Virus record (IMG/VR): IMGVR_UViG_3300025264_002059
Coordinates: 1-30,828 of that record
Length of the DNA stretch: 30,828 nt
Direction: 5' to 3' (one strand)
Source: a virus
The notes under the pieces are model-generated. The model had not been told where the DNA came from. It ran no database searches and saw nothing but the letters and a program-made list of their open reading frames with translations. Positions 8,871-25,427 of the stretch are shown in pieces. Position 1 is the first letter of the stretch. The number at the start of each line of letters is the position of its first letter. The translations under genes were made by a program, and so were the position numbers.

Positions 8871-8895
8871 TGGAATTTTAAAGGAGCAACAACGG

Positions 8896-9342: not shown

Positions 9343-9343
9343 T

Positions 9344-10313: not shown

Positions 10314-10314
10314 A

Positions 10315-10680
10315 ATGCCGGAATATGCATACAGGTGTTTGGCTTGCGAACATACATTTTCTGATGTTATACCAATGAAACAGTACAAAAAAAGAAGAAA
10401 GTGTCCGTCTTGTAAGAAACATAAACTATCGCGAATCTTGGGCAGCTTTACGTCTTTTGTAAGAGCGGAGCCTACAACGCTGGGTCAGTTAGCTGAACGC
10501 AATACCCAAAAATTCGGAAAATACGAGTTAGACGAGAAAAAACGGCAACAAGCGAAGGGCAAAAATGTTGACAAAAAGGGCCAGCCTTGGTATCATAAAG
10601 ATGGGGAAGCGTCTCAAAATGAAGTCTTCAAAATGACTCCCGAGCAAAAAAAGAGATATATTCAAGAAGGTAAAAAATGA
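10315..10680 (+). CDS. FmdB-type zinc-ribbon protein
   Basis: A 121-residue protein whose first 45 residues match the FmdB-type zinc ribbon: MPEYAYRCLACEHTF with Cys8 and Cys11, then RKCPSC with Cys30 and Cys33. The rest is a charged, lysine-rich, probably flexible extension ending in a helix (MTPEQKKRYIQEGKK). Such proteins are frequent in phages and are presumed to bind nucleic acid or proteins; the exact role is unknown. It overlaps the next gene, another cysteine-rich protein, by an ATGA junction. Confidence 0.75.
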   Translation: MPEYAYRCLACEHTFSDVIPMKQYKKRRKCPSCKKHKLSRILGSFTSFVRAEPTTLGQLAERNTQKFGKYELDEKKRQQAKGKNVDKKGQPWYHKDGEASQNEVFKMTPEQKKRYIQEGKK

Positions 10681-10964
10681 GTGAGCAGGAGCCTACTGAA
10701 AGCGGACTGGAGGATTTGGGACACGAATTTATCAAATGCGTATCCTGCGAATCTGAACATGTTGACATATGGAAAACTAAAGAATCAAACAGAATAACAA
10801 CGGTAAAAGTAATCTGCGAAAACGAAGGGTGCGGCGGATCGAGTCCTACTAGAGAAATCATTGGAGAGTTTTATATCGGTTGTACGGAATCGAGTCAACT
10901 TGTCAGTATAGATCAAGATACTGAAGATTATGTAGAAATACACTGTAAATCTATAGAGGTTTAA
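10677..10964 (+). CDS. Small cysteine-rich, probably zinc-binding protein
   Basis: A 95-residue acidic protein. Cys21 and Cys24 (IKCVSCES) plus Cys48 and Cys53 (ICENEGCGG) are spaced like a zinc ribbon or knuckle; two further cysteines (in YIGCTES and IHCKS) lie in the C-terminal half. No family was recognised. The ATGA overlap with the FmdB-like gene suggests coordinated production of the two small metal-binding proteins. Confidence 0.6.
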   Translation: MSEQEPTESGLEDLGHEFIKCVSCESEHVDIWKTKESNRITTVKVICENEGCGGSSPTREIIGEFYIGCTESSQLVSIDQDTEDYVEIHCKSIEV

Positions 10965-10965
10965 C

Positions 10966-11295
10966 ATGGTAGATAAACACGAAGATTTCGGAGAGACTTC
11001 TAGGGAGATAAACCGTAGATATATCTTAGGCAGCGGTAAAGAAGTAGATAAAGAAACTCAACAGGTTTGTGCGAAGATGCACATTCTTATCGATAACGGA
11101 AAGCATACCAATTTTTGCTACGTTAAATTCTTCAGGGGCAAAATGTTTGACCCCCAAGGAATCGATGCAACAAAAATAAGGCTTGCCGAGTTCAAAAGGG
11201 TTAAAGAAAATATATTTAACCTCTACTTCAATTACCTAAAAACCAAAAACGGGGAGTCCCTTATCAGAGCAGAAAGAGAGTATATACATGTCTAA
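10966..11295 (+). CDS. Hypothetical protein
   Basis: A 109-residue protein that I do not recognise. It has a charged N-terminus (VDKHEDFGETSREINRRYIL), a central beta-rich region (VCAKMHILIDNGKHTNFCYVKFF) and a helical C-terminal half ending RAEREYIHV. There is no membrane segment or catalytic signature. It starts 1 base after the preceding stop and overlaps the next gene by 8 bases. Confidence 0.6.
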   Translation: MVDKHEDFGETSREINRRYILGSGKEVDKETQQVCAKMHILIDNGKHTNFCYVKFFRGKMFDPQGIDATKIRLAEFKRVKENIFNLYFNYLKTKNGESLIRAEREYIHV

Positions 11296-11620
11296 AAAAA
11301 GCGGTCCCTTAAATAGGGTTGAGAAATTTTACATAGATAATCATTCTGATAAAGGCGTTAAAGACCTTGCCGAAGAATTAAACAGAAACCAAAAGGTTAT
11401 ATCAAAATACCTAGGAGGCAAACCCGAAAAAGCGACCACGTCTGAGGCTCAAGGCGAAGGCAAGGAAAATGTCATTGCTGGAGAACTGTTCGGCCATAAA
11501 GATGGCAGAGGAGTTACTGTTATGACACCGGCTGCATCAGAACAGGCTGATAGTTTTAAATCCAATGCATTATTAAAAAAATCAGAAAGCTCCTCCTGTA
11601 TACATAGGATTAAAGACTAA
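11288..11620 (+). CDS. Hypothetical protein with N-terminal helix-turn-helix-like segment
   Basis: A 110-residue protein. Residues 8-42 (VEKFYIDNHSDKGVKDLAEELNRNQKVISKYL region) have the pattern of a helix-turn-helix: a helix, a second helix KDLAEEL, a turn at NRN, then QKVISKYL as possible recognition helix. The remainder (about 45-110) is low-complexity, Ser/Gly/Lys-rich and probably disordered, ending in CIHRIKD. It could be a small transcriptional regulator or an adaptor that contacts host RNA polymerase. Neither is shown by the sequence. No DNA target is evident nearby. Confidence 0.55.
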   Translation: MSKKSGPLNRVEKFYIDNHSDKGVKDLAEELNRNQKVISKYLGGKPEKATTSEAQGEGKENVIAGELFGHKDGRGVTVMTPAASEQADSFKSNALLKKSESSSCIHRIKD

Positions 11621-12064
11621 ATGTCTATAAGTATTTCCATCGACGGCTATATCAATCAGTATGCCGACAGCAATCCTATCTGGATAGCTACTTTATCTGA
11701 CGGTACTACTGTTTATCAGGACGACGACAGACCCGGTGAAGAGCCGAGCAGCGCATGGGAAAGATTGGGAGCGCATTGCAAAGAGAACAACCTCTACATC
11801 ACCGGCATGAAAATCAAAAACCGTTCACATATTGAGGTTGTCGGAGAGGGCGGTGACGGCTATTATTTTTGTAAGTGCGCCGGAAAATATATGTTCGGAG
11901 ACACAACCAACCATTCTTTTATAGTTGGGGTGTTAGAAAATGACGAGCTACGAGTCAGACACTGGAATCTGCCAGAAATAATACCAGAACAATTTGAGAC
12001 CAGAAACCCCACCGAAGCAGGGGCTTGCTTGATTGCCAAAAATAAATCATATGAAGAAGTATAA
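11621..12064 (+). CDS. Hypothetical protein
   Basis: A 147-residue protein beginning directly after the preceding stop. The segment WIATLSDGTTVYQDDDRPGEEPSSAWERL (residues 21-49) is distinctive, and I recall similar segments in uncharacterised proteins of environmental phages. The rest alternates short strands (YITGMKIKNRSHIEVV, GYYFCKCAGKYMF, SFIVGVLENDELRVRHW), suggesting a beta-rich fold. No catalytic or metal motif stands out beyond one CKC pair. Function unknown. It overlaps the next gene by 14 bases if that gene uses the ATG at 12051. Confidence 0.6.
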   Translation: MSISISIDGYINQYADSNPIWIATLSDGTTVYQDDDRPGEEPSSAWERLGAHCKENNLYITGMKIKNRSHIEVVGEGGDGYYFCKCAGKYMFGDTTNHSFIVGVLENDELRVRHWNLPEIIPEQFETRNPTEAGACLIAKNKSYEEV

Positions 12065-12470
12065 ACACGTTACGACTGGACAAGAATGCGATGCCGCTCA
12101 ATACATAGCGGAGATGGTTTTATTGAGAGAGGCAGAAAAGGCAAATGAAGGTACTCCAGCCTTCAAATTGTGGAATACCACAAAATGGAAGAACAAATTC
12201 AGAAGTCAGGTGACAAAAGCGTACCAGCTTCTTAAGAAGTATGACGAAATCGCTATCATAAATGCTCTCAAGTCACCAAAGGGTAGCTGGATGTATTCAC
12301 TACGTCTAAAAGCGCTGGAGAATATAATCAAATACGAGCAGATAAAGGTAGATAAAGAAAAAGATCGTGAAATTGTACCTAAAAAGTACGTGATAGAAGA
12401 AGCTGCTCCTCCACGAAAACCGTTTGGCAGAAAAAGTACGATTCAGAAACTGAGGGATTTAGATGGCTAA
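12051..12470 (+). CDS. Hypothetical basic protein upstream of the recombinase
   Basis: With ATG 12051 the protein has 139 residues; a TTG at 12033 would add only six. It is basic and mostly helical, with TTKWKNKFRSQVTKAYQLLKKYDE followed by AIINALKSPKGSWMYSLRLKAL, a pattern that could suit DNA or protein binding. The tail is Pro/Lys/Arg-rich (VIEEAAPPRKPFGRKSTIQKL). I do not recognise the family. It overlaps the RecA-like gene by 8 bases, so it may be an accessory factor in recombination or replication; that is inference from position. Confidence 0.6.
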   Translation: MKKYKHVTTGQECDAAQYIAEMVLLREAEKANEGTPAFKLWNTTKWKNKFRSQVTKAYQLLKKYDEIAIINALKSPKGSWMYSLRLKALENIIKYEQIKVDKEKDREIVPKKYVIEEAAPPRKPFGRKSTIQKLRDLDG

Positions 12471-13548
12471 AGCTGTAGCTGAAATGCTGAATGATGACAC
12501 AACAAAAGAAATTATCAAAAAATATGGACACGTAGTACGGAGTGGATTAGAGGTTTTTGAAGAAAGATCTAATCTGCAAATCATTCCTGTTAGCCCTGCT
12601 TTAGATTTGGCTCTGGGTGGCGGGATACAAGAAGGGGGATGGGTTACCTTCACTGGCGATCCCAAAAGTGGAAAAACAACAACAGCCCTTCAGTTCGCCG
12701 CCACTTGCCAGCAGGAAAAATACGGTTCTAAACCGGTAATATATCTTGATGCAGAGGGAAGGTTAAAATCAATAAACCTTACGGGTATCCATGGACTAGA
12801 TATTGAAAAAATGAAGATTGTTGGCACTGTGGATGAACCCATGAGTGCAGAACAATTCCTTAATATTGCCGAATTTTATATCAAAAATACCCCCGGCTGT
12901 GTATTGATAGTAGACTCCATTTCAGCGCTTATCCCAGAAAAGGAATTGATTGATGATGTTAATGCCCAATATCGCCCATCTCTTCCCAAGCTTCTAAAAA
13001 ACTGGTGCAAAAAATTAGGTGGTATTGTACCAAGACAAAAAGCTATTGTAATTATGATTACGCATTTAATTGCAAACACTTCTGGCTTTGGCAAGAGTAA
13101 AGTACCTGATGGTGGCCGTGGGATTCAATATCAAACAGACAACATATTAGAAATAAAATATATAAAGCCGTGGGTATCTGGGGGTAAGCAAATTGGACAA
13201 ATGATTCATTGGCAAATTAAGACTTCCGCCGCAGGAGGCTTTCCCGGCAGCGAAGCTCAGGGATGGCTTAAATACGGTCTAGGAATCGACAAAACCCAAG
13301 AGTTGTTTATAATGGCGGTAGATTTAGATTTAATAGCTAAAGCTGGAGCTTGGTACACCTGTAATTACCTTCTTGAAGATAGCGACAGGGTTAAAGATTT
13401 ACTTATAGCCAACGACATAGATGTAGAAGATGAAAAGGAAGTAAAGTCATTTTTTCAATTTCAAGGGCAAGATAAGGTTGCTGCTTTTTTAAGCAGTAAT
13501 CCTACCACCTTAGAAATCCTCGAAGAAGAAATAAAGAGCATGCTGTGA
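12463..13548 (+). CDS. RecA/UvsX-like recombinase
   Basis: A 361-residue RecA-fold ATPase. Walker A is GDPKSGKT (65-72). The catalytic glutamate lies in YLDAEGRL (Glu98), like DAEHAL of RecA. Walker B is CVLIVDSISALIP with Asp151. The following ITHLIANTSGFGKSKVPDGGRG covers the sensor and the L2 DNA-binding loop region. It should polymerise on single-stranded DNA and drive strand exchange for recombination-dependent replication and repair. The next two genes encode a nuclease and a possible mediator, forming a recombination block ahead of helicase and primase. Whether RecA- or UvsX-type is closer cannot be settled by eye, so I give no symbol. Confidence 0.9.
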   Translation: MAKAVAEMLNDDTTKEIIKKYGHVVRSGLEVFEERSNLQIIPVSPALDLALGGGIQEGGWVTFTGDPKSGKTTTALQFAATCQQEKYGSKPVIYLDAEGRLKSINLTGIHGLDIEKMKIVGTVDEPMSAEQFLNIAEFYIKNTPGCVLIVDSISALIPEKELIDDVNAQYRPSLPKLLKNWCKKLGGIVPRQKAIVIMITHLIANTSGFGKSKVPDGGRGIQYQTDNILEIKYIKPWVSGGKQIGQMIHWQIKTSAAGGFPGSEAQGWLKYGLGIDKTQELFIMAVDLDLIAKAGAWYTCNYLLEDSDRVKDLLIANDIDVEDEKEVKSFFQFQGQDKVAAFLSSNPTTLEILEEEIKSML

Positions 13549-13964
13549 AAGTTACAGGATTCGATGGCCGGGAGAGAGAATGGAAACTTGTAAGAAAAAC
13601 TGCTAGACACAACAAAAGAAAATGCTCCAGTCTTCACAAAAGAGCCAGAGCCGTCTTGCGTGAACTCTTCCCGCGTACTATAATTCTAGAGGAAGTCCAT
13701 CTTCCCGGTAGCGCCACGCTGACACGATCTTCAACGCTATTTGCAGATTTTTACGTTCCGTCACGCAAACTTCTCGTAGAGGTTCACGGCAGACAGCATT
13801 ACGAATTTAACGAATTTTACCATAAGACTAAACGAGGTTTTCAGAAAGCCAAGGCTAGAGACAGAGATAAAATCAGATGGTGCGATTTAAACGAGATCGA
13901 TATTGTTGTATTGAGTCACGAAGGTGAAGACGATGAATGGAAAAGGTCAATTCTCAACCGATAG
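13545..13964 (+). CDS. PD-(D/E)XK endonuclease of the Vsr/DUF559-like type
   Basis: A 139-residue nuclease starting at GTG in a GTGA overlap with the recombinase stop. No other start codon suits the fold. The catalytic core is visible as Glu50 (ILEEV), Asp68 in LFADFYVP and Glu79 in LLVEVHGRQHY, with a following helix rich in Lys/Arg (HKTKRGFQKAKARDRDKIRW). This arrangement matches very-short-patch-repair endonucleases and DUF559/DUF2726 relatives. The N-terminal 35 residues are strongly basic. Because it is coupled to the recombinase, a role in processing recombination intermediates is attractive. A free-standing homing endonuclease of the Vsr-like group is the main alternative. Confidence 0.72.
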   Translation: MKVTGFDGREREWKLVRKTARHNKRKCSSLHKRARAVLRELFPRTIILEEVHLPGSATLTRSSTLFADFYVPSRKLLVEVHGRQHYEFNEFYHKTKRGFQKAKARDRDKIRWCDLNEIDIVVLSHEGEDDEWKRSILNR

Positions 13965-14412
13965 CTTTGAATATTTTGTTGACTCTTTAGATAACTATAT
14001 CTCAGGAGAACAAATATATTCCATTCAGATAAATCCAGAAGTTGAAACCATTATCAATTTAGAAAGTGTAGAATTAGAATCTTTAACCCCCGAAGAATGC
14101 TGCGAAAAGGCTTATGTTCTTTATGGTTATTGTCATTATGTTCAGTCCGTTTCTAATCAGCATATCGTAAAACTAAATTGGTGTGAAAAACAACTGAACA
14201 TGATCGTTTCAAAACAGGCGAGCCAGTTTGATAAATACATGAAGTGGGAACAAAAATATTACACCGTTATAGACAATGACGAATTTGCCAAGAAGTTATT
14301 TGAAGTTAAGTTGGCCGCTGAAAGCAGAGTTATGTGGCTCGACAACAAAGTAAGAGACCTTAGAAGAATGGCAGACTCATTATTAGAGCTTAGTAGGAGA
14401 AAAAGTGGATGA
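13933..14412 (+). CDS. Hypothetical protein, possible UvsY-like recombination mediator
   Basis: A protein of about 159 residues from ATG 13933, with AAGG 8 bases upstream; a GTG at 13924 would add three residues. The N-terminal third is acidic. The C-terminal two thirds are long helices rich in Lys, Glu, Gln and aromatic residues (NWCEKQLNMIVSKQASQFDKYMKWEQKYY, then KLAAESRVMWLDNKVRDLRRMADSLLELSRR). Length, helical build and position after a RecA/UvsX-like gene recall UvsY, which loads UvsX onto SSB-coated DNA. No motif proves this. It overlaps the nuclease gene by 32 bases and the next gene by an ATGA junction. Confidence 0.5.
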   Translation: MNGKGQFSTDSFEYFVDSLDNYISGEQIYSIQINPEVETIINLESVELESLTPEECCEKAYVLYGYCHYVQSVSNQHIVKLNWCEKQLNMIVSKQASQFDKYMKWEQKYYTVIDNDEFAKKLFEVKLAAESRVMWLDNKVRDLRRMADSLLELSRRKSG

Positions 14413-14834
14413 TTAGCCCGTTAGAAAAAATGAGAGTTGGCATAGAGACCAATGACATGGATCTTATTCGAGTAGCATTTGAGGAATTAACGGGAGAGGT
14501 AACAACCAGTCCGAAAAACCCACCAACTACGGAAGACCCACCTATGAATAAAAACGACTTTAGTGACTTTGTTGCTTCTGCTCAGTCATCCGATCCTACA
14601 ACAAAATCTAGAGTGGCTAAAACCGCGCCGGTTGTTGGAGGTGATAACACCTTCACAGACGAAGGAACAGATTCTAAGGATATAGAGACTCCACAAATCG
14701 CTCTTTCGCCTCGAAATAGACCCGCTTCCGTAACAGTGGAAATACTGTGTCATAAATGTGGTAAAACAGAAAAGGTTGCCCAAAGTCTCGTACAGGGTGA
14801 ATTCCACGTTTGCGGAAAATGCGCTAGAAAATAA
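14409..14834 (+). CDS. Hypothetical protein with disordered middle and C-terminal zinc ribbon
   Basis: A 141-residue protein. The first 35 residues are helical. Residues about 35-105 are rich in Pro, Thr, Ser and Asp and look disordered. The end forms a zinc ribbon, CHKCGKTEKVAQSLVQGEFHVCGKC, with four cysteines in CxxC...CxxC pattern. No family was recognised. It lies between the possible mediator and the helicase with no gap, so an accessory role in replication or recombination is plausible; a zinc ribbon on a flexible tether often serves in protein or nucleic-acid binding. Confidence 0.6.
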   Translation: MISPLEKMRVGIETNDMDLIRVAFEELTGEVTTSPKNPPTTEDPPMNKNDFSDFVASAQSSDPTTKSRVAKTAPVVGGDNTFTDEGTDSKDIETPQIALSPRNRPASVTVEILCHKCGKTEKVAQSLVQGEFHVCGKCARK

Positions 14835-14835
14835 A

Positions 14836-16293
14836 ATGGCAAGCCAAATAAACAACTCGGCGTCTGAAAAAGCGGTACTAGCCGGTCTTTTAAACCACGG
14901 GGTGGATGCGTATATCGACGTAGACGATATAATTAATGTAAACACCTTTGACTTTGAACAAAATCAAATACTTTATGCCTGTATAGAAAAAGCTCTAGAA
15001 GGTAGTTCCAGCGTGGACCTACCTTCTCTTCTTAGCGTTGCTAAAGATTTAGGGCTAGACTCTATTATAGAAGAAGAGGTTGCTTTGGATGATATCAAAG
15101 CACTCTTTAAAACGGATATTGATTTAAACAATGTTAGGAAGCACGCGGTTAAGCTAAAAAAATTAGAAATAGCTAGAGACATAAAAGGCAAAGTAAAACA
15201 AATCATTTCTGATGTTTCTGATGTTACGGGTGATGAATCCATAGATGAGATACTTAACATTGCTGAGTCACCTATTTTTGCTTTATCCGCAACACTAAAC
15301 GGATCGGTAGAAGATAAACCGATTACTCTCGGAAAAGAAGTCTCTGAATATATCTCTCATGTAGAAGAGAATCCTTCGGCCTTTTTGGGCTTGACTAGCG
15401 GTTTTGTTAGGTTTGATGAGGCGATAGGCGGTGGGTTTAGAAGGAAGTGTGTAGACCTAATTGCTGCACGTCCCAAAGTGGGTAAAAGTATGTTTGCTGA
15501 TAATGTGGCTATACATATATCCGAGAAATTAAACGTTCCCGTTTTAGTTCTAGATACGGAAATGTCGAAAGAAGATCACTTCAATCGCGTTCTTGCTAAT
15601 TTTAGTGGTGTGAATATTAATGATATAGCCAGTGGTAAATTTGCGGAAAGTGTTTGTGAAAAAGAAAAGGTCTATAAAGCTGTAGAAAGATTTGATAAAA
15701 TTCCCATCGACTATATAAGCATTGCTGGGAAGCCTTTTGAAGAAACCCTATCAGTCATGCGAAGATGGTTATTCAAAAATGTCGGATATGACGATAATGG
15801 CCGAATCAAAGACTGTATGATTATATACGATTATCTTAAACTTATGGACTCCGGGCAAATTAGTGACAGCCTCAAGGAATATCAAGTCTTAGGTTTTCAC
15901 ATTACGCAACTTCACAATTTTTGTGTTCAGTACGACTGCCCGTGTCTAAGCTTTGTTCAGTTAAACCGGGATGGGATTACTAAAGAATCTACTGATGTCG
16001 TAAGTGGCTCTGACAGGTTGGTATGGCTATGTAGCAGCTTTAGTATTTTTAAGAAAAAATCCGACGAGGAAATTGCAGAAGACCAAGGGGAAAACGGAAA
16101 TAGAAAATTGGTTCCTATTGTTACACGGCACGGTGCTGGTTTAGACGATTATGATTATATCAATATCGCAATGCTTGGAGAGACAGCGAAGATTATAGAA
16201 AAACCCACCAGAAATGAGATCAAATTCGATTACCAAAAGCAGCAGTCTGGATTTGAAGTCGATGATTTTGATAACGAAGAAAGTCCCTTTTAA
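14836..16293 (+). CDS. dnaB: DnaB-like replicative DNA helicase
   Basis: From ATG 14836 the protein has 485 residues, typical of DnaB. An upstream in-frame start at 14758 would lie inside the previous zinc ribbon and add non-family sequence. Residues 5-110 have the N-terminal DnaB domain pattern (SASEKAVLAGLL, then QNQILYACIEKAL). The RecA-type motor follows, with LTSGFVRFDEAIGGGFRR, Walker A ARPKVGKS (211-218), DTEMS (240-244), Walker B CMIIYDYLKLMD (Asp332) and FVQLNR (373-378). It should unwind DNA 5' to 3' as a hexamer at the fork. It ends at the ATG of the primase (one-base overlap). No separate helicase loader was recognised. Confidence 0.9.
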   Translation: MASQINNSASEKAVLAGLLNHGVDAYIDVDDIINVNTFDFEQNQILYACIEKALEGSSSVDLPSLLSVAKDLGLDSIIEEEVALDDIKALFKTDIDLNNVRKHAVKLKKLEIARDIKGKVKQIISDVSDVTGDESIDEILNIAESPIFALSATLNGSVEDKPITLGKEVSEYISHVEENPSAFLGLTSGFVRFDEAIGGGFRRKCVDLIAARPKVGKSMFADNVAIHISEKLNVPVLVLDTEMSKEDHFNRVLANFSGVNINDIASGKFAESVCEKEKVYKAVERFDKIPIDYISIAGKPFEETLSVMRRWLFKNVGYDDNGRIKDCMIIYDYLKLMDSGQISDSLKEYQVLGFHITQLHNFCVQYDCPCLSFVQLNRDGITKESTDVVSGSDRLVWLCSSFSIFKKKSDEEIAEDQGENGNRKLVPIVTRHGAGLDDYDYINIAMLGETAKIIEKPTRNEIKFDYQKQQSGFEVDDFDNEESPF

Positions 16294-17333
16294 TGAAAAA
16301 AGAAGAACTCGCAGTTTTGTCACATAAAGTTGCATTGAGAATGGAGGATTTATTGGACCTCTTCGGGGTCGAATATTTCCGTCAGTATGACAGAATAACC
16401 TGCGTGTGTCCTATACACGAAGGCGCAGATAACCCACAAGCGTTTACCATTACAATGGAAGACAAATACTTTGGATGCTGGAGATGCTGGACCCACGGGT
16501 GTGAAGAAAAATTTCTGCATACCCCCATAGGCTTGATAAGGGGTTTGCTAAGCTCCAGAAAAGGTAAGGAAGTTTCGTTTCAAAAAGCCGTTAATTTTTC
16601 CTTAGAGTTTGTGTCTAGCTCTATAGAGGATTTAGCAAAAGAAAGTCACGATTTCAAAGTCGAGAAAGTCACTACCCCGTCAGACCCCTTAAAAAACCGA
16701 CATATTCCCGACAACGCAATATCCAGAAAAACAGTAAGAAATTCTTTAGCCAGACCGGTAAAATATTATTTGAACAGAGGTTATTCGGAAGATACTCTGG
16801 ATAAATTTGATGTAGGTATCTGCAATGATCCCTCAAAGCAAATGAATGGAAGAATAGTTGTCCCGGTGTATGACGACAATCATGAGTATATGGTCGGCTG
16901 CGTAGGTAGAACACAAAGTGAAATCAGTAATGGATTTAAGTGGGTAAACTCTAAAAATTTCAACTCTGGTTTATATCTATATGGATATTGGCTCGCCAAA
17001 GATAAAATTCGAGAAACCAAAACCGTTATTCTCGTGGAAGGCCAAGGGGATGTATGGCGGCTATACGAAGCTGGCATCGGAAACGCTGTCGGAATGTTTG
17101 GATCGAGCCTTAGTGATGGTCAGGCTAGAATTTTAGAAACATCCGGGGCTTTTAACGTTGTTGTTCTGACTGATAATGATGACGCTGGAGCAAAGGCTAA
17201 ACAATCTGTAGGCAAAAAATGCGAGAGGTTATTTCATCTGGTGTTTCCTGAATTTTCCAAAGAGGATATAGGTGAAATGTCTGTTGATGAAATAGAAACA
17301 ATAATTAAGCCACAATTAACGGGAATGATCTAA
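16293..17333 (+). CDS. DnaG-like DNA primase
   Basis: A 346-residue primase, shorter than bacterial DnaG (about 580). It has the two core parts: an N-terminal zinc-binding domain with CVCPIHEG (Cys39, His42) and CWRC (Cys62, Cys65), and a Toprim domain with ILVEGQGD (Glu249) and LTDNDDAG (Asp294, Asp296). Between them GRIVVPVYDD and VNSKNFNSG belong to the RNA-polymerase core region. No helicase domain or long C-terminal helicase-binding domain is present, as expected since helicase is the preceding gene. It makes RNA primers for lagging-strand synthesis. It ends 1 base before the dNMP kinase gene. Confidence 0.9.
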   Translation: MKKEELAVLSHKVALRMEDLLDLFGVEYFRQYDRITCVCPIHEGADNPQAFTITMEDKYFGCWRCWTHGCEEKFLHTPIGLIRGLLSSRKGKEVSFQKAVNFSLEFVSSSIEDLAKESHDFKVEKVTTPSDPLKNRHIPDNAISRKTVRNSLARPVKYYLNRGYSEDTLDKFDVGICNDPSKQMNGRIVVPVYDDNHEYMVGCVGRTQSEISNGFKWVNSKNFNSGLYLYGYWLAKDKIRETKTVILVEGQGDVWRLYEAGIGNAVGMFGSSLSDGQARILETSGAFNVVVLTDNDDAGAKAKQSVGKKCERLFHLVFPEFSKEDIGEMSVDEIETIIKPQLTGMI

Positions 17334-17334
17334 A

Positions 17335-18102
17335 ATGGAACAAAAAATACTTGGAATCTCTGGCGCGAAGCAAAGCGGAAAAACTACTACTAGTAATTTT
17401 CTACATGGCTATCAGTTACGTTTTTATGACATCGTTGAAAAGTTCATGATGGATGAAGAGGGAAATCTACTTGTAAACACAAAAGGCATTGACGAAAAGG
17501 GCGAGGAAATTGAAGGCATGGGAATCATGGACATAGAGAGGCAAGATGATGATTTTTGCGAATTCGCAGCGGGTCACATCTGGCCATGTGTTAGATCATT
17601 CAGTTTCGCTGATCCCTTAAAATCAATATCCATGCAATTGTTTGGTCTTACTAGAAGCCAATGCTTCGGTACAGATAAAGATAAGAATTCTTCAACAGAT
17701 ATACCGTGGAAAAATATGCCCGGAAAATCTAGATCCAAGAAGAATATGACAGCTAGAGAATTTCTACAATGTTTTGGCACAGATGTTTGTAGAAAAATTA
17801 AGCCGGATATTTGGACATCTTCGTGTATTTCACGCATCAGAATGAGCCAAACCGAATTGGCAATCGTTCCAGATTGCAGATTCCCTAACGAAGTAGAGGC
17901 TATAAAAGAAGCTGGCGGCAAGGTTGTTCGTCTAACCAGAAGCCCTTACAGCGACCCTCACGTAAGCGAAAACGCCCTAACAAACGATTATGAGGGGTTT
18001 GACTGTATAATCGATAACAAAAATTTAGACATGCACGAGTCTAACATCGCCATACTTAACATCTTAAAAAACTGGGAATGGTTACAGGTAAAGGCTGGTT
18101 AA
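17335..18102 (+). CDS. Deoxynucleoside monophosphate kinase (T4 gp1-like)
   Basis: A 255-residue P-loop kinase. ILGISGAKQSGKTTT carries Walker A (Gly10 to Thr17). SFADPLKSISMQLFGL, TAREFLQCFGTDVCRKI and IVPDCRFPNEVEAIKEAGGKVVRLTR match T4 gene 1 kinase landmarks, including the lid arginines. The T4 enzyme phosphorylates several dNMPs, including dTMP and dGMP. It would convert the dTMP from ThyX to dTDP, with host kinases finishing the step. The gene lies 1 base after the primase gene and 1 base before the cupin gene, in the DNA-metabolism operon. Confidence 0.9.
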   Translation: MEQKILGISGAKQSGKTTTSNFLHGYQLRFYDIVEKFMMDEEGNLLVNTKGIDEKGEEIEGMGIMDIERQDDDFCEFAAGHIWPCVRSFSFADPLKSISMQLFGLTRSQCFGTDKDKNSSTDIPWKNMPGKSRSKKNMTAREFLQCFGTDVCRKIKPDIWTSSCISRIRMSQTELAIVPDCRFPNEVEAIKEAGGKVVRLTRSPYSDPHVSENALTNDYEGFDCIIDNKNLDMHESNIAILNILKNWEWLQVKAG

Positions 18103-18103
18103 T

Positions 18104-18475
18104 ATGATTAAAACGAAAACCGTAGAAAAACCTTGGGGTTGTTATACCGACTATTATAGAACTGATTCTGTAGTATTCAAACGTATAGTAGTTAACCCCG
18201 GCGAGGAATTATCATATCAACTCCACCACAAAAGAGAGGAATTTTGGTATGTCCTTAGTGGAAACGGTATGCTAAGGCTTAACAGTTCAAACTGGTATGT
18301 CAGACCGGGTATGTCGTTTCACATTAAGACGAATGAATCTCATCAGCTTATAAATAACGGCGATGAAAAAATTGTAGTCTTTGAGATGCAGTTTGGAACA
18401 TGTCTAGAGGATGACATTGTAAGATTGGAGGACAAATATGGACGGCAAGGTGAATCTGGTATGGGCGACTCCTGA
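18104..18475 (+). CDS. Stand-alone mannose-6-phosphate-isomerase-type cupin
   Basis: A 123-residue protein matching the C-terminal cupin domain of ManC/type II phosphomannose isomerase: EKPWGCY near the start, a cupin core with [22 protein letters not shown] (metal-binding His and Glu), and the closing [13 protein letters not shown]. As an isolated domain it may interconvert fructose-6-phosphate and mannose-6-phosphate, the first step toward GDP-mannose and GDP-fucose. Its place among DNA-metabolism genes is odd, because the other sugar genes are 13 kb upstream or 7 kb downstream. It overlaps ThyX by 38 bases. Confidence 0.82.
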
Positions 18476-19073
18476 AGCAGAAAAAGTTATAGGGTATTGC
18501 GCTAGAGTCAGCAACTCCAAAAACCAAAAAAATCCAAAAGTGTCCGGGCTGTTGAAGTTTTGTATTAAACACGGTCACTGGTCTATTTTTGAGATGGCCA
18601 ACATGACTGTTGAAATAAATACAACCAGAGGCATAGCCGCCCAGATTCTTAGACACCGGAGTTTTTCTTTCCAAGAATTTAGTCAGCGATACGCCGAGAT
18701 GGAGGGATTTGAGTACATCTGTCCTAGAAGACAAGACACAAAGAATCGTCAAAACTCTTGGGACGACCTTGAAGAAGATGACAAGACGTGGTTTGAATAT
18801 ACCCACAAGAAGGTTCAAGACGCCACTAGTGACTTTTATAAAGAAGCACTGGAGAGGGGGATCGCAAAAGAAAGTGCAAGGTTCTTGCTTCCTATGAGCG
18901 TTAAGACTAGAATGTATATGAATGGTACGACACGTAGCTGGATTCACTACATACAACTCAGAACCGATAAGTCTACACAAAAGGAACACAGAGGTATTGC
19001 AGAAGCCGTCAAGAACATTTTTATCGAACAGTTTCCTATCACCTCAGAAGCTTTAGGATGGAAAAATGAATAA
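18438..19073 (+). CDS. thyX: FAD-dependent thymidylate synthase
   Basis: A 211-residue ThyX. The signature RHRX7S is present as [11 protein letters not shown] (72-82), followed by [16 protein letters not shown] and [30 protein letters not shown] cover the remaining substrate-binding region. It makes dTMP from dUMP with methylene-tetrahydrofolate and reduced FAD, needing no separate dihydrofolate reductase. The start is set by GGAGG at 18427-18431, 6 bases before ATG, inside the end of the cupin gene. dUMP is supplied by dCMP deaminase and dUTPase in this window. Confidence 0.95.
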
Positions 19074-19590
19074 TCGCGTACAAATCAAGCTACCGAAAGA
19101 AAAGCTTGAAGAAGCTATTTATATCGCCAAACAGAGAGACCTGAAAAAAGAAAAATTTGGCTCAAAGAGTTATAATAACAGTTATCGAAGTTCAGAAGAT
19201 GTACATATCGTAGGCGCGATTGGAGAAGCCGCTGTAGCCCATCTCTTCGGCGTAGAAATAGATAAAACTATTTTTCATGACCGAGGGGACGCAGGGGTCG
19301 ATAATAAAGTAGAGTCCTATGGGAACATCGAGGTAAAGACTACCACGTACTGGAAAAACCCCTACCTAAGAGTACCCGCCTACAGACCAAACAAAGACAT
19401 CGACCACTATGTTTTGTGCTATGTTGACAAAAGGGATTATTCCAATGTTTGGGTGATCGGCATCGCAAAAAGAGAAGACGTGGTCAATAGACCTAAGAGG
19501 AAGCTGTGCAAAGATGGACCGCTCAACTATATCTTGGAAGAAAGTGAGCTAGAAAAAATAGATGTTAATTTGTTACCATCGAAGCAGTAG
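19066..19590 (+). CDS. Predicted PD-(D/E)XK nuclease
   Basis: A 174-residue protein with a compact restriction-nuclease-like core. Glu54 lies in [14 protein letters not shown], Asp79 in DAGVDNKV, and Glu89/Lys91 in NIEVKTTTY, giving the D...ExK arrangement of the superfamily. A further strand, [25 protein letters not shown], follows as in many family members. It overlaps ThyX by 8 bases and the next nuclease gene by 29. It may process DNA in replication, repair or host DNA breakdown; the specific substrate is not shown. Confidence 0.72.
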
Positions 19591-20563
19591 CCTTGGGACT
19601 CTGGACTTCTGCGAACAGAAGTATTTCCTAGAGTACAACTTGTCGTTTAAAGACAAAACAAACCCAAAGGCTTTAATGGGAACCGTTGTCCATAAAGCTT
19701 TGCAAGTTTTAGGGGATAAGAAGCTCTGTATTAACAGGGGAAATAAAAGCTTTACGGATGACGAATTAGGGAGGCTTACTCTTAAAGATTGTGATGATTT
19801 AGAAAAAATTACCACCAAGGCGTTCAAGTATTATACAAAACATCAACCGGAAGTCAAGCTAGGAAAACCTGAATTAACAAAGTGTGTCAAATGGGTCAAC
19901 AAGGCCGTGGAGTATAACGACGGCCTCCTCGATCCTCGAAATCAAGATGTTTTTGCTACGGAGCAGTATTTCGATATAGAAATTAAGAAGCCATGGGCTA
20001 AGTATTGTTATGATATCGGAGGAGAAAAGATTGAAGGATATCTATCCATCAAGGGAACGGTGGACCTAATTGTAAGGCACGACGAAAAATACCATGAAAT
20101 TCTTGACTACAAGACTGGAAAACGCATTAATTGGGCAACGGGGGAAGAAAAAACGCTGGAGTCGTTACAGAGCGATACACAGTTGTTACTGTATTATTAC
20201 GCCCTTAAAAATTTGTACCCTGAATATGATTTTGGCGTTAGTATTTTTTATATCAACGCTGGTGGCTTGTTTTCTATGTGTTTCGAAGATAAGGATTACG
20301 TCAAGGCTGAAAACATACTCAAACAAAAATTTCAATACATACGAAATGTAAAAAGGCCAAACTTACTGTCTGATGAAAATAAACACTGGAAGTGTCAAAA
20401 GCTTTGTAAATTTAGCGAGCAGTACAAAGACACGGGCAAAAGTTTATGTCAGTTTATAAGGGATGAAGTCAAAGTAAAGGGCATTAGCAAAGTTGTTTTA
20501 GAATACGGTGATTTGAACAAGCTTTCCAGTTATGGAAGCGGTGGAGGAAAATTGAAAAAATGA
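19562..20563 (+). CDS. RecB/Cas4-like PD-(D/E)XK exonuclease with probable iron-sulfur cluster
   Basis: A 333-residue nuclease of the RecB-like type. The opening [20 protein letters not shown] matches the first helix of AddB/Cas4 proteins. GTVVHKAL carries His44, GTVDLI Asp168, LDYKTGK Asp182/Lys184, and SDTQLLLYYYAL the motif with Gln206. Four cysteines (Cys17 near the N-terminus; Cys278, Cys282 and Cys296 near the C-terminus) are placed like the 4Fe-4S cluster ligands of Cas4 and AddB. It probably resects DNA ends. It overlaps the upstream nuclease gene by 29 bases and the polymerase gene by an ATGA junction. No CRISPR array or other cas gene is seen. Confidence 0.85.
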   Translation: MLICYHRSSSLGTLDFCEQKYFLEYNLSFKDKTNPKALMGTVVHKALQVLGDKKLCINRGNKSFTDDELGRLTLKDCDDLEKITTKAFKYYTKHQPEVKLGKPELTKCVKWVNKAVEYNDGLLDPRNQDVFATEQYFDIEIKKPWAKYCYDIGGEKIEGYLSIKGTVDLIVRHDEKYHEILDYKTGKRINWATGEEKTLESLQSDTQLLLYYYALKNLYPEYDFGVSIFYINAGGLFSMCFEDKDYVKAENILKQKFQYIRNVKRPNLLSDENKHWKCQKLCKFSEQYKDTGKSLCQFIRDEVKVKGISKVVLEYGDLNKLSSYGSGGGKLKK

Positions 20564-22467
20564 GTTGGGTTCCCTTACATATGCACACGCATTATAGCCT
20601 TCTAGACGGTCTTTCCAAACCCTCACAGGTTGCAAATTGTTGCTCCGAATTTGGGTATAACGCCTGTGCGATAACAGACCATGGGACTATTTCTGGCGCT
20701 GTTGCTTTCACTCAAGCGATGCAGAAAAAAAGTATCAAGCCGATCATAGGGTGTGAATTTTATCTAAGCCAACAGTCCTGCAAGATCCAAGACAAAAGCA
20801 ATAGACAGTTAAGTCACTTAGTTGTCTTGGCTAAGAATCATCAGGGGTGGCTAAATTTAATTCAAGCAACATCCAGAAGTAACGATGAGGATATTTTCTA
20901 TTTTAAACCCCGGTTAGACTTGGAGACGCTTGGGGAATATACGAATGGCAACCTGATTGCTTTTAGTGGACATCTCGGCAGTGATTTAGCCAATATCATC
21001 TTTTCAGATTATAAATCTGCATATAAAGCCTCTACAGAAGCAGAGGTTAAGGAACATGTTGATCCAGACTGGGAATTAAAAGTTCTTAATAAGGCAAACT
21101 TGTATAAGGATATCTTTGGTAAAGAGAACTTTCTTATCGAGATTCAGTGTATCGATGAAGAAAATTCCCCAGCAGCCAAGCTGGTAGCACAGGGGTTACG
21201 ATACGTTGCCAAAAAATATCACATACCTACGGTAGCTACAGCAGACTCACACTATCCAACCAAAGCTGACGCTTCCGACCACACGATTTTGCTCTGTTCG
21301 GCAATGAAGACAACCCTAAGAGGGATTAAGAAAAAAATAGCTGACAACGAGGACGTGGGGTTTTCTGGTTTTTTGAAGTCTAACAATTTTCATATCCCTT
21401 CTCCAGAAGAAATGAAGGCGTTACACACAGAAGCAGAACTGGAAAACACTGTTATGGTTTCTGATATGTGCGAAGAATATAACATATTAAACGCCCCCAC
21501 CCTGCCTAAATTTGCTTGCCCAAACTCCTCGAAAGAAGAGGATCACTTGAAGCAGCTATGCCGAGATGGATGGCGTGACACTTTGTTGAACAAAGGGAAA
21601 TTAACAGATGAAAACACGCAGGTTTATCTGGATAGGGTCACTAAAGAGCTAGATGTCATAAGCGATGCAAACCTTTCAGGATATTTTTTGATCGTTAAGG
21701 ATATCGTAGATGAGGTTAGGCGTCGAGACTGGCTTCCGGGTCCGGGTAGAGGGTCTGCTGCTGGCTGCTTAGTTTCTTACTTGATAGGTATTACCCAAGT
21801 TGATCCAATAGAGCATGGATTATTATTTGAACGATTTTATAACGTGGGTAGAAACACCGCTGATCACGTCTCGCTTCCCGATATTGATATTGATGTTCCT
21901 GCCACAAAACGAGACGAAATAATTGACTATATAAGAGAAAAGTACGACCCTAAAAAGGTCGGGCAGATGGTTACGTTTGGTAGATTACAGGGGCGCAGCG
22001 CGCTGAAGGAAGTGCTAAGAATGAATGAGGCTTGCTCGTTTGATGAGATGAACACAATCACCAAAAGCCTACCACACGAACATGAAATCTCAGACCTACT
22101 AGCAGACATGGATAATCCTTCGGTTATTCGCTGGACCTTAATAAATCAACCGGATTCTTTACGGGATTATTGCAGAATCAACGATCAAGGAGAATTGGAA
22201 GGTGACTATTCTAAACTCTTTGAACAGGCTATGCGAATCGAGGGAACTTTTAAATCTCAAGGGAAACATGCCGCAGGTGTGATCATTTCTCTACATAACC
22301 TCAGTGAGGTTTGTCCCATGGTCAGAAACAAGAAGGGGTCTGAAAAAATAGCCGGTATGGAAATGAACGATCTTGAAGCAATGGGGCATGTTAAGTTTGA
22401 TGTACTCGGCGTTTCTTTGTTAGATAAAATCATGGGAATCAGTAAACAGGTTAATGAAAGAAACTAA
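20560..22467 (+). CDS. dnaE: DNA polymerase III alpha subunit, N-terminal half (PHP and palm)
   Basis: A 635-residue protein equal to the first half of bacterial DnaE. The PHP domain (1-280) has apparently intact metal ligands: MHTHYS (His9, His11), TDHG (Asp40, His41), CEF (Glu66), SGHLG (His138) and ADSHYP (Asp229, His231). The palm follows with GPGRGSAAGCLVSYLIG (394-410), the catalytic pair in SLPDIDIDVP (Asp441, Asp443) and the third aspartate in VKFDVLG (Asp614, equal to E. coli Asp555). The protein stops 21 residues after that point at TAA, where full-length DnaE continues for about 520 residues. The missing part is encoded at 23375-24961. GGAGG lies 12 bases before the ATG. C-family polymerases are uncommon in phages, which mostly use A or B families. 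Confidence 0.92.
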   Translation: MSWVPLHMHTHYSLLDGLSKPSQVANCCSEFGYNACAITDHGTISGAVAFTQAMQKKSIKPIIGCEFYLSQQSCKIQDKSNRQLSHLVVLAKNHQGWLNLIQATSRSNDEDIFYFKPRLDLETLGEYTNGNLIAFSGHLGSDLANIIFSDYKSAYKASTEAEVKEHVDPDWELKVLNKANLYKDIFGKENFLIEIQCIDEENSPAAKLVAQGLRYVAKKYHIPTVATADSHYPTKADASDHTILLCSAMKTTLRGIKKKIADNEDVGFSGFLKSNNFHIPSPEEMKALHTEAELENTVMVSDMCEEYNILNAPTLPKFACPNSSKEEDHLKQLCRDGWRDTLLNKGKLTDENTQVYLDRVTKELDVISDANLSGYFLIVKDIVDEVRRRDWLPGPGRGSAAGCLVSYLIGITQVDPIEHGLLFERFYNVGRNTADHVSLPDIDIDVPATKRDEIIDYIREKYDPKKVGQMVTFGRLQGRSALKEVLRMNEACSFDEMNTITKSLPHEHEISDLLADMDNPSVIRWTLINQPDSLRDYCRINDQGELEGDYSKLFEQAMRIEGTFKSQGKHAAGVIISLHNLSEVCPMVRNKKGSEKIAGMEMNDLEAMGHVKFDVLGVSLLDKIMGISKQVNERN

Positions 22468-22715
22468 TGTCAACAACATATAGAGAATTTATTGAAAACG
22501 AGATCTATAACGGGAGACATGTGGATTATAGAGGTGTGTCTATATGTTGTATTAACGATTTTTATGAGTTAAAAACTGGCAAAATTAAATATCAGGTTCA
22601 TTGTGACGATATTAAAAATAAGTTCAGTCACTTGTATAGCAATTTGTACACTGCTATAGATAAGTTCATGTCAATTAGACGAAACCTAATGCGTTATAAA
22701 GGAGCTAGTCATTAA
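22467..22715 (+). CDS. Small hypothetical protein between the polymerase halves
   Basis: An 82-residue protein beginning in a TAATG overlap with the first polymerase half. It looks folded: TYREFIENEIYNG, then beta segments VDYRGVSICCINDFYELK and KIKYQVHCDD, then a helical end, LYSNLYTAIDKFMSIRRNLMR. It contains no intein splice motif, no homing-endonuclease motif (LAGLIDADG, GIY-YIG, HNH) and no known domain that I recognise. Its position invites the idea of a polymerase accessory peptide that bridges the two halves or the exonuclease. It could equally be an unrelated small gene. Its last bases hold the ribosome binding site of the exonuclease. Confidence 0.6.
   Translation: MSTTYREFIENEIYNGRHVDYRGVSICCINDFYELKTGKIKYQVHCDDIKNKFSHLYSNLYTAIDKFMSIRRNLMRYKGASH
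22698..22715 (+). promoter_or_regulatory. Ribosome binding site and ATT start overlapping a stop codon
   Basis: AAAGGAG (22698-22704) lies 6 bases upstream of ATT (22711-22713). The ATT shares its last T with the TAA stop (22713-22715) of the 82-residue gene, giving an ATTAA junction analogous to ATGA. In the exonuclease frame the upstream stop is TAA at 22687-22689, and no ATG, GTG or TTG occurs between it and the first catalytic motif, so ATT is the best-placed start. Confidence 0.65.
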
Positions 22716-23394
22716 TTTTCACGATATTATAGTATTTGACTTTGAAACTGGCAGTCGCAACCCCTCTAAAACTCAGCCTACACAAATCGCAGCAGTTGCG
22801 ATCCATGGCAGAAAGCTAACTATTCAGCCAAACGGCTATTTTAATAGCGAAATGAGACCTATTCTTGACGACGAGAAAGCAATAGAAAAAGGCTTCGATC
22901 CCCTAGAAGACGAGGCTTTGGATATTACTCGAAAAACAAGGGCTGCTTTAGCCAAGGCTCCGTCTCCCAAAACGGTTTGGAATAAGTTTGGCAACTTCGT
23001 AAACAAGTATAATTGGAAAAAGACGCCGTATTTTGCGCCTATAGCTTCTGGTTATAATATCAATGGATTTGATATGATTATTGTGGACAGGATGTGTGAA
23101 CAATTTGGTCCTTACGATAAAGAGCGAGGACAACAAACTCTATTCAATAAGATTCATAAGATAGATGTCATGCCGTTGGTGTGGGGATGGCTTGAAAATA
23201 ATAAGGATATCAGGTCTTTAAGTTTAGATTCTCTCAGGGACTATTTTGGAATGTCTAAAGATAATGCTCATGATGCATTACAAGACGTAAAAGACACTGC
23301 TAACTTATTGATTCGGTTTTTAAAAATGCAACGTAAATTTGCATCCAAAGTACAATTTGAAAAGGCTTTTGCTGATGGATCAAAAGAACTTTAA
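22711..23394 (+). CDS. DEDDh 3'-5' exonuclease (proofreading, epsilon-like), ATT start
   Basis: From ATT 22711 the protein has 227 residues. Exo I is IIVFDFETGS (Asp10, Glu12), Exo II lies in ASGYNINGFDMII (Asp121), and Exo III is AHDALQDVKDT (His187, Asp192), the DEDDh pattern of DnaQ/epsilon. The first in-frame ATG, at 22852, would delete Asp10 and Glu12 and leave a dead enzyme, so it cannot be the functional start. A TAA at 22687-22689 bounds the frame upstream. The insert between Exo I and Exo II is longer than in DnaQ (about 110 residues) and recalls exonuclease I or RNase T relatives. Lying between the two halves of the replicative polymerase, it is the obvious proofreader for it. Confidence 0.85.
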   Translation: MNFHDIIVFDFETGSRNPSKTQPTQIAAVAIHGRKLTIQPNGYFNSEMRPILDDEKAIEKGFDPLEDEALDITRKTRAALAKAPSPKTVWNKFGNFVNKYNWKKTPYFAPIASGYNINGFDMIIVDRMCEQFGPYDKERGQQTLFNKIHKIDVMPLVWGWLENNKDIRSLSLDSLRDYFGMSKDNAHDALQDVKDTANLLIRFLKMQRKFASKVQFEKAFADGSKEL

Positions 23395-24961
23395 TATTGA
23401 CGATTTAGACTATACCGACCAGCAAACATGGGATTTAATTTGTGCTGGTAGAACTAAAGGCGTATATCAACTAGAGAGCAACCTAGGTAAATCTTGGGCC
23501 AAGCGGGTCAGGCCGAAGAATATTGAAGAATTAGCTGCTTTGGTAGCCCTCATTAGGCCGGGATGCTTAAAAGCTATCGTCGATGGTAAGTCTATGACCC
23601 AGCACTATGTTGATAGGAAACACGGTCAGGAAGAAACTACCTATGTTCACGAATCTTTAGAGCCAATCTTGAAGAGCACACAGGGGGTGCTTGTTTATCA
23701 AGAACAATCCATGGAAATTGCTCAGAAAATTGCGGGGTTCAATCTGGAGGAAGCGGACAACCTGAGAAAAGCTATCGGTAAAAAACAGGCTGATCTAATG
23801 GCTCGGATTAAGAAAAGGTTTATTGAGGGAGCAGTTAATGAATCTATTGTTTCTAGAGAAGCAGCGGAGGAGATATTTGGATGGATCGAAAAATCCAGTC
23901 GCTATGCTTTTAATAAGTCTCATGCTGTTTCCTATGCTATTTGTGGCTATTGGTCTGCTTATGCTAAAGCGCATTATCCACTAGAGTTTTACGCCAATTA
24001 TCTCAAACACGCAAAAAATAAACCAGACCCACAGCAAGAAGTCAAAGAGTTAGTATCTGATGCTAAGATGAGTGAAATTCATGTTCAGCCCCCATCTATC
24101 GATAAACTGAATGAAGAAACCGAAATAATCAATCAAAAAATTCATTTCGGATTGAAGGACTTAAAGTCCATAGGAAACAATCAAATTAACAAGCTAAAAT
24201 TAGCCCTGTCCGAAGAAAACGATGCGTGTGATAATATCTCAGGTTGGACGTGGTACGAATTTCTGGTTAAACTGTCACACAAAATTAATTCCTCAACAGT
24301 AGTCGCTATGATTTCCGTAGGAATGTTTGGACATACTAAAATTAGTAGGAATAAGATGCTGGACGAGTTTGACACATGGGAAAAATTAACAGCCAAAGAA
24401 AGAGATTGGGTATCTTCTCAACATGAAAAATGGGACACCCTGACTAAAGCAATGAAAATGCTTGCTCCCAAAAAGAAGGAGGGTGGGGGCACTTTTAACG
24501 ATGCTAGAAGCCAAATTGTCAAAGACCTCACTTTGCATCTCGATAATCCCGCGTATTCTCTAGACGATACTCCCGACTGGGTTGCCCAGACAGAACAGCA
24601 ATATTTAGGGGTTTCTATTACCTACTCTAGAGTAGACTCATGTGATACTAGCTCTGCCAATACTACATGTAAGGAATTCGTTAACGGCGGTAGGAAATCG
24701 GCAGCTTTAGCTGTATCAATTAATGCGGTTAGAAACTACACAGTTAAAAAGGGAAAGATGAAGGGAGAAGACATGGCTTTTCTAGAGGTAGAAGATCACA
24801 GTAGCCCCTTGGATAATGTCGTGATTTTCCCCGAAAATTTGGAAAAGTATAAGAACCTTCTCTACGAGGGCAATACCGTCCTGTTATCGGGAAACAGGTC
24901 TAAAAAAGAAGGACAGAGAAACAATGATAGCTTGGTTATAGAGAGGGTGCGGCAGATTTAG
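23375..24961 (+). CDS. dnaE: DNA polymerase III alpha subunit, C-terminal half (fingers to OB domain)
   Basis: From ATG 23375, with AAAGG about 10 bases upstream, the protein has 528 residues; a TTG at 23339 adds 12 residues foreign to DnaE. It takes up exactly where the first half ends. TKGVYQLES (27-35), ALIRPGCL (58-65), YVDRKHG (78-84), VLVYQEQSME and YAFNKSHAVSYA (177-188) are standard DnaE landmarks from the fingers onward. The last 85 or so residues form the OB-like domain (FLEVEDHSSPLDNVVIFPENLEKY, then NTVLLSGNRSKKEGQ). No clear beta-clamp-binding pentapeptide was spotted. The two halves sum to 1163 residues, about the 1160 of E. coli DnaE. It overlaps the exonuclease gene by 20 bases. 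Confidence 0.9.
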   Translation: MDQKNFNIDDLDYTDQQTWDLICAGRTKGVYQLESNLGKSWAKRVRPKNIEELAALVALIRPGCLKAIVDGKSMTQHYVDRKHGQEETTYVHESLEPILKSTQGVLVYQEQSMEIAQKIAGFNLEEADNLRKAIGKKQADLMARIKKRFIEGAVNESIVSREAAEEIFGWIEKSSRYAFNKSHAVSYAICGYWSAYAKAHYPLEFYANYLKHAKNKPDPQQEVKELVSDAKMSEIHVQPPSIDKLNEETEIINQKIHFGLKDLKSIGNNQINKLKLALSEENDACDNISGWTWYEFLVKLSHKINSSTVVAMISVGMFGHTKISRNKMLDEFDTWEKLTAKERDWVSSQHEKWDTLTKAMKMLAPKKKEGGGTFNDARSQIVKDLTLHLDNPAYSLDDTPDWVAQTEQQYLGVSITYSRVDSCDTSSANTTCKEFVNGGRKSAALAVSINAVRNYTVKKGKMKGEDMAFLEVEDHSSPLDNVVIFPENLEKYKNLLYEGNTVLLSGNRSKKEGQRNNDSLVIERVRQI

Positions 24962-25025
24962 TGCAAAAACCCCTACGAAGTAGTATTTTTAAGTAGTTAC
25001 TTGTAAAAAATTGGAGGATCTCGTA
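24962..25025 (+). promoter_or_regulatory. Intergenic leader with repeats upstream of SSB
   Basis: One of the few real gaps (64 bases). It holds a short hairpin CTAC-GAA-GTAG (24973-24983) followed by TATTTTT, a perfect inverted repeat AAGTA-GT-TACTT (24991-25002), and two direct copies of AAGTAGT (24978-24984 and 24991-24997). GGAGG at 25013-25017 is the SSB ribosome binding site. The four-pair stem is weak for a terminator. The repeats could be an operator or a promoter element for the SSB-sigma-glycosyltransferase run. No convincing -35/-10 pair was found. Confidence 0.35.
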
Positions 25026-25427
25026 ATGAACAACATCACAAATGATTGTCGTTTTCTAGGAAGACTCGTTTCCGATCCAAATCTAATTAAGACTAAAAAT
25101 GATGTGGATCTGGTTACTTTTACACTAGCGATTCCTGAATATCGTAAGGAAAGAACCGGAGAGAAAAAAAGAAATGTGAGCTATTTTGATTTTGAAGCTT
25201 GGGATACCGGGGCTACTACTATTGCTAAATATACACGAAAAGGGGACGAAATTTTTGTCCACGCTTCTGCTAGACCAAATAACTGGACAGACAAGGCTGG
25301 TCGAAAAAACTATCAGGTAAAGTTCAGAGTGAAGGAATTTAAACTGTTCAATTATCATAGCGACGACAAAGAGACTGGAGACGCCCAAGAAGAAGAAGTA
25401 ACTCAGGAGGAGTTTAATACTGTGTAA
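25026..25427 (+). CDS. ssb: Single-stranded DNA-binding protein
   Basis: From ATG 25026, 8 bases after GGAGG, the protein has 133 residues; a TTG at 25011 lies on the binding site itself and is rejected. The OB fold shows the usual SSB order: NDCRFLGRLVSDPNL, VTFTLAIPEY, NVSYFDFEAWDTGATTIAKYTRKGDEIFVHASARPNNW, then YQVKFRVKEFKLF. The acidic tail is EEEVTQEEFNTV and lacks the DDDIPF ending with which E. coli SSB recruits host partners, so it may prefer phage proteins. Abundant SSB is consistent with the strong ribosome binding site and the leader upstream. Confidence 0.88.
   Translation: MNNITNDCRFLGRLVSDPNLIKTKNDVDLVTFTLAIPEYRKERTGEKKRNVSYFDFEAWDTGATTIAKYTRKGDEIFVHASARPNNWTDKAGRKNYQVKFRVKEFKLFNYHSDDKETGDAQEEEVTQEEFNTV

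Follow-up and report, generated by a model that had tools for sequence, protein, structure and literature searches.

Can a replicative DNA polymerase of the DnaE type work as two separate polypeptides, encoded by two genes with a proofreading exonuclease gene lying between them? This question is raised by a locus in the window (the whole 30,828-nt stretch of viral DNA analysed here). To our knowledge, cellular family C replicases are single chains, or are rejoined into one in cyanobacteria. Open reading frames and profile matches gave the following features of the locus:

19562..20563, plus strand: PD-(D/E)XK nuclease, upstream neighbour, its place conserved in relatives (Pfam PDDEXK_1, 4.7e-19)
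20560..22467, plus strand: DnaE N half, 635 aa (Pfam PHP, 1.9e-37; DNA_pol3_alpha, 5.2e-67)
21880..21888, plus strand: codons of catalytic Asp441 and Asp443 (PDIDID), aligned with Taq Pol III alpha 463/465
22399..22401, plus strand: codon of catalytic Asp614 (KFDVLG), equivalent to E. coli Asp555, read from the sequence
22467..22715, plus strand: 82-aa ORF (S82), small alpha/beta domain (AF2 pLDDT, 89.8)
22699..22705, plus strand: AAAGGAG, Shine-Dalgarno-like site for the exonuclease, read from the sequence
22711..23394, plus strand: DEDDh 3'-5' exonuclease, 227 aa, probable ATT start (Pfam RNase_T, 3.3e-14, residues 7-200)
23375..24961, plus strand: DnaE C half, 528 aa (Pfam DNA_pol3_finger, 1.4e-49; HHH_6, 1e-06)
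25011..25427, plus strand: single-strand binding protein (SSB), downstream neighbour, its place conserved in relatives (Pfam SSB, 9.7e-19)

The N half contains the PHP domain, the palm (GPGRGS, PDIDID, and KFDVLG), and the thumb, as assigned with profiles and by alignment with the Taq and E. coli enzymes; all three catalytic Asp residues are invariant in the alignment of N halves. The C half, for which the start ATG 23375 was preferred over the mechanical ORF start TTG 23339, contains the fingers, a helix-hairpin-helix (HhH), and an OB fold, with the finger motifs and FNKSH conserved among the aligned C halves. Modelled alone, it gave a confident structure (AF2 pLDDT, 89.6; pTM, 0.82), whose top matches in a Foldseek search were Pol III alpha chains. 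The domains of a family C DnaE and the three catalytic Asp residues are thus present in order, but over two chains and not in a single polypeptide. The break directly follows the third catalytic Asp, where the palm meets the fingers. On PHROG 405 (DNA polymerase, 1190 positions), the N and C halves cover 42-617 and 623-1078, respectively; in the alignment with Taq alpha, residue 631 is the last one covered by the N profile and 633 the first one covered by the C profile, and therefore no residues are missing at the break. The N half and S82 overlap by 1 nt (TAATG), S82 and the exonuclease by 5 nt, and the exonuclease and the C half by 20 nt. An earlier note, made from the sequence alone, had described an alpha subunit divided right after Asp614 into parts totalling 1163 residues with all landmarks in order, and an 82-residue gene and a DEDDh exonuclease between them in one co-directional overlapping run; the frames and domain matches agree with this description, the N chain ending 21 residues after that Asp. 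The C half stops after the OB fold, near residue 1060-1070 of E. coli alpha; the alignment to E. coli alpha, which ends at the OB fold near 1055, shows no counterpart of its C-terminal tau-binding domain, so that the domain content appears to fall short of that of the complete E. coli enzyme. Nor did the alignment reveal an evident internal clamp motif in the C half, where divergence could mask one.

The exonuclease also matched phrog_192, 'DNA polymerase exonuclease subunit' (3.9e-23), and its residues D10, E12, D121, H187, and D192, which form the DEDDh set in the RNase_T fold, are invariant in the alignment of relatives. The mechanical ORF start is ATG 22852, with DFET (DEDDh motif I) located upstream of it; because motif I would be lost with this start, the start was moved upstream, near 22711. 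It is probably the ATT at 22711, behind AAAGGAG, the relatives having ATG at the same residue. This rare ATT start is common to the near-identical loci L002 and L003, and ATG is found in other relatives. The C-terminal tail of the exonuclease (KVQFEKAF) is conserved, its pattern F-x-x-[AS]-F being kept across most of the clade (e.g. in the L002 exonuclease, 7337-8017), and is perhaps a docking motif for the polymerase or a clamp. Of 173 loci, 121 have the exonuclease stop overlapping the C-half start, and in 152 the two are no more than 30 nt apart. The prevalence of this overlap points to translational coupling, not splicing.

The earlier note had proposed a comparison with related phage contigs. 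A first scan of IMG/VR with the C half as query gave 15 loci, in which N, exonuclease, C, and SSB follow in that order wherever the contig reaches, and further scans with profiles and diverged members raised the number of split loci to 246, 174 of them distinct in sequence, taken as the best-scoring loci of each scan and classified by script. The outcome of the comparison was positive: all 174 distinct loci are broken at the same point and have the exonuclease gene in the middle, and no intact gene is present among them. The conjecture that the exonuclease is tied to the split polymerase was likewise borne out, at the level of a conserved neighbour, by the same 174 loci. When a sequence of an intact lineage served as the control query, the same classifier called 48 loci intact and none split, and is therefore able to detect intact genes. 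Since only the best-scoring loci were sampled, a more distant intact sister lineage could exist. Two of the loci, L002 and L003, come from other metagenomes and are the same locus as that of the window. The named DnaE phages examined have intact genes, with the sole exception of Bacillus phage vB_BauM_KLEB27-3. A scan of GTDB contigs gave only distant Actinobacteria loci, mostly with a single-frame DnaE, and the closest cultured phages by terminase share only 23% identity. Bacteroides phages DAC16-23 and SJC03, which match the exonuclease, were considered as cultured members and rejected, DAC19 having no DnaE beside the exonuclease.

Several variations were found within the halves. In 47 of 172 distinct loci (the L044-L096 subclade, e.g. 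L044, 2258-3835), the central part of the PHP domain is missing from the N half, and the PHP domain of this subclade is probably inactive. A CxC...C head precedes the conserved finger sequence in 85 of 174 distinct C halves (CGC...C, e.g. at 7863 in L007 and at 7905 in L012) versus none of the 19 intact proteins examined; it is possible that this head forms a zinc site at the break. Since it occurs on deep branches, the head may have been added early at the new N terminus and have disappeared from the window's subclade. In L261 (2222-4113), five overlapping frames make up the N half, which looks like the product of frameshift sequencing errors.

A tree built from 46 representatives of the split loci plus 13 outgroups recovered the split clade as monophyletic (SH-aLRT/UFBoot, 100/100 with IQ-TREE, used in place of FastTree, which gave a modest support of 0.42-0.98), with a stem of about 0.95 substitutions per site. 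The patristic distances of N and C are concordant (Mantel r, 0.81; best of 999 permutations, 0.18), which fits a single old break followed by joint inheritance of the two halves. Values of dN/dS are 0.005-0.12 for N, exonuclease, and C in nine close pairs, wherever dS was estimable and changes were seen, indicating that the three genes are under strong purifying selection.

The gene between the N half and the exonuclease is variable. A homologue of S82 is present at this junction in 53 of the 174 loci, a small ORF of 59-72 aa with no relation to S82 in 59, other genes, uracil-DNA glycosylase among them, in 35, and nothing in 27. The junction between the exonuclease and the C half is tight in most loci, and some have an Endonuclease VII-like ORF or a methyltransferase there. 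S82 itself has no Pfam or PHROG match, and its fold gave no match at E <= 0.001 in the PDB and viral models. Since S82 is replaced or missing in relatives, only the exonuclease qualifies as a conserved partner; the suggestion that the 82-residue protein is also a built-in partner is accordingly not sustained.

If the halves were joined after all, the joining could take place in the protein or in the RNA. A split intein might rejoin them covalently after translation, as in cyanobacterial DnaE, and split-intein-like ends do occur within the clade: the N half is broken again between PGRG and SAAG, with Int-N-like and Int-C-like ends, in L050 (570-3337, with a 291-aa nuclease-like ORF between its N pieces) and L061 (1337-3308), and the C half is broken between FNK and SHS, with intein-like ends, in L290 (7792-10784, with a 309-aa DUF559 nuclease-like ORF between its C pieces), L145, L146, and L291-L293. 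The latter break has a fractured-gene layout adjoining the cyanobacterial DnaE intein site. At the break shared by the whole clade, however, the N tail after KFDxLG has just 12-40 residues (240 loci), leaving no room for an Int-N, the C half starts 6-55 residues ahead of the first conserved Trp, and in the window the N half terminates with LLDKIMGISKQVNERN and the C half opens with MDQKNFNIDDLDYTDQQTWDL, both being ordinary DnaE sequence. An intein at the conserved break was ruled out by these tail lengths, and we consider covalent rejoining extremely unlikely. Splicing of the message, with N and C as exons of one gene and the middle as a self-splicing intron carrying the exonuclease, has an apparent precedent in KLEB27-3 (L186), whose DnaE is annotated as two genes with an HNH gene between them, in a probable group I intron (RF00028; a weak match, E of 0.004, under the gathering score). 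The KLEB27-3 break is 30-40 residues away from that of the window, and its DnaE branches with intact DnaE and is therefore an independent event. In contrast, the window has no match to Rfam introns at the gathering or a relaxed threshold, in a search of limited sensitivity that gave the weak match in L186 and none in L242, which is interrupted by a LAGLIDADG gene. Furthermore, the middle varies from ~650 to >4000 nt and is filled by unrelated genes, the N stop and the C start are codons of their own overlapping with the neighbours, and the exonuclease is not a homing enzyme. Neither the continuous frame nor the intron removal that the earlier note had named as counter-evidence was encountered, and an intron origin of the layout is in our judgement very improbable. 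The LAGLIDADG-type ORF of L242 (2396-3244) interrupts the N half at PDIDID, as is also seen in L244-L246, L248, L249, and L252.

The locus could instead be real but dispensable, a decaying or accessory polymerase in phages that replicate with the host Pol III or an unseen phage polymerase. Such a view might draw on the loss of the middle of the PHP domain in one subclade, as described above, and on the fact that the 20 related contigs surveyed for another polymerase (84-244 kb) are not known to be complete, so that another polymerase could be encoded in the part of the genome that they lack. Against it, neither PolA, PolB, nor an intact DnaE was found in these 20 contigs; a second polymerase elsewhere in the genome, as envisaged in the earlier note, thus did not come to light. 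DnaE was found only at the split locus in 19 of them, the remaining one (G013) carrying two split copies; one contig (G003) has no N half because it begins inside the locus. The catalytic residues are invariant, the layout is conserved throughout a deep clade, and dN/dS is low in all three genes. The surroundings are also those of a replication gene cluster (helicase, primase, SSB, recombinase, RNR, and ThyX), and a dispensable locus therefore appears improbable to us. In the window, positions 6687-19073 encode a ribonucleotide reductase, a UvsX-like recombinase, a DnaB helicase, a primase, a dNMP kinase, and ThyX. A 206-kb contig, IMGVR_UViG_3300024358_000009, has two split-polymerase loci (L288 and L291) with N halves 88% alike, one of the C halves being broken, and is either chimeric or has the locus in duplicate. 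None of the 20 large contigs gave a match to a bacterial-type clamp, so processivity would depend on the clamp of the host or on one that escaped recognition; the search for a T4-type clamp (PF02916) was uninformative, its positive control giving no match. As to a sequencing or assembly artefact, the window is indeed a metagenome contig, but the same structure in 174 distinct loci from many metagenomes leads us to reject an assembly error, to which we attach practically no probability.

Comparison with known polymerases places the layout among several partial likenesses. Cyanobacterial DnaE is also made in two pieces, which are encoded far apart in the genome; it is broken at the FNKSH region, and a split intein joins the pieces again. 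The present break is located about 180 residues upstream of that region and leaves no room for an intein. In Firmicutes, PolC likewise links a family C polymerase to a DEDDh exonuclease, which is embedded in the PHP domain of a single uninterrupted chain, whereas the genes are separate here and the exonuclease is outside the PHP domain; PolC matches the N and C halves weakly. The earlier note was right that neither of these two systems matches the locus, but overlooked the precedents of split phage polymerases. In T4, the exonuclease is within the same chain as the polymerase. In the T4-like Aeromonas phages 25 and 44RR, the replicative polymerase is encoded by two adjacent genes (43A and 43B; PMC2988022), as in the present locus, and the 43A and 43B products of phage 25 co-purify with polymerase activity; the split NrdA of Aeh1 is also active (PMC2988022). 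These genes are associated with homing endonucleases, as are the polymerase genes of several relatives described here. The Aeromonas enzymes, however, belong to family B and not family C, have a seg homing endonuclease or an untranslated spacer between the two genes instead of a proofreading gene, and are split in a few related phages, with no report of fixation in a deep clade such as that found here. The N/C break of the window contains no free-standing homing endonuclease, and in some relatives the Endonuclease VII-like ORF is at the exonuclease/C junction. In the group 2.2 jumbo phages, a minimal Pol III alpha is encoded in two distant genes alongside PolB (Iyer et al. 2021, PMC7824862). 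Common to these phages and the present clade is a family C polymerase made as two stand-alone proteins; the group 2.2 proteins comprise only the catalytic core, divided between the NTP-binding and Mg/template-binding subdomains, and their genes are far apart, whereas the polymerase described here extends from PHP to OB with a palm/fingers break, its genes being adjacent and co-directional with the exonuclease between them and no PolB in the 20 contigs. Fractured genes, with split inteins and a free-standing endonuclease, have a similar look inside several relatives, not at the conserved N/C break. The N-exonuclease-C layout itself was not found in the open-access literature searched. Split phage polymerases are therefore already known, and the layout with the exonuclease between the halves is not shared by those precedents.

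Given the established layout, its conservation, the intact motifs, the purifying selection, and the lack of another polymerase in the long relatives, we regard it as highly likely that this locus encodes the replicative polymerase used by a large lineage of uncultured phages, and that this enzyme is permanently made as two chains that assemble non-covalently with an exonuclease proofreader. In the proposed working of this two-chain enzyme, N, exonuclease, and C would be translated off one message by coupled initiation; the N half (PHP-palm-thumb) and the C half (fingers-HhH-OB) would pair non-covalently to form one active site, and the exonuclease would dock on their complex as an epsilon-like proofreader. 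A more specific proposal, that the exonuclease or the CGC...C head clamps the catalytic halves together in a three-chain replicase core fixed in a deep lineage and unlike the described family C enzymes, is speculative and in our view rather unlikely. The further breaks in relatives (L050, L061, L145/L290, and L242) indicate that the polymerase gene is a recurrent target of homing elements, and the conserved break may itself go back to an attack of this kind. An ancestral homing-type insertion probably made the break and later disappeared or gave way to other sequence, so that the exonuclease gene now separates the halves.

The split may have practical consequences: such polymerase halves may be wrongly annotated as fragments in viral metagenomes, and the natural split point could be useful for biochemistry, split-enzyme work, and studies of exonuclease coupling. 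If the reading of a two-chain polymerase is true, a whole phage clade has relied on a two-part replicase since one ancient event, and the covalent link between palm and fingers would be dispensable.
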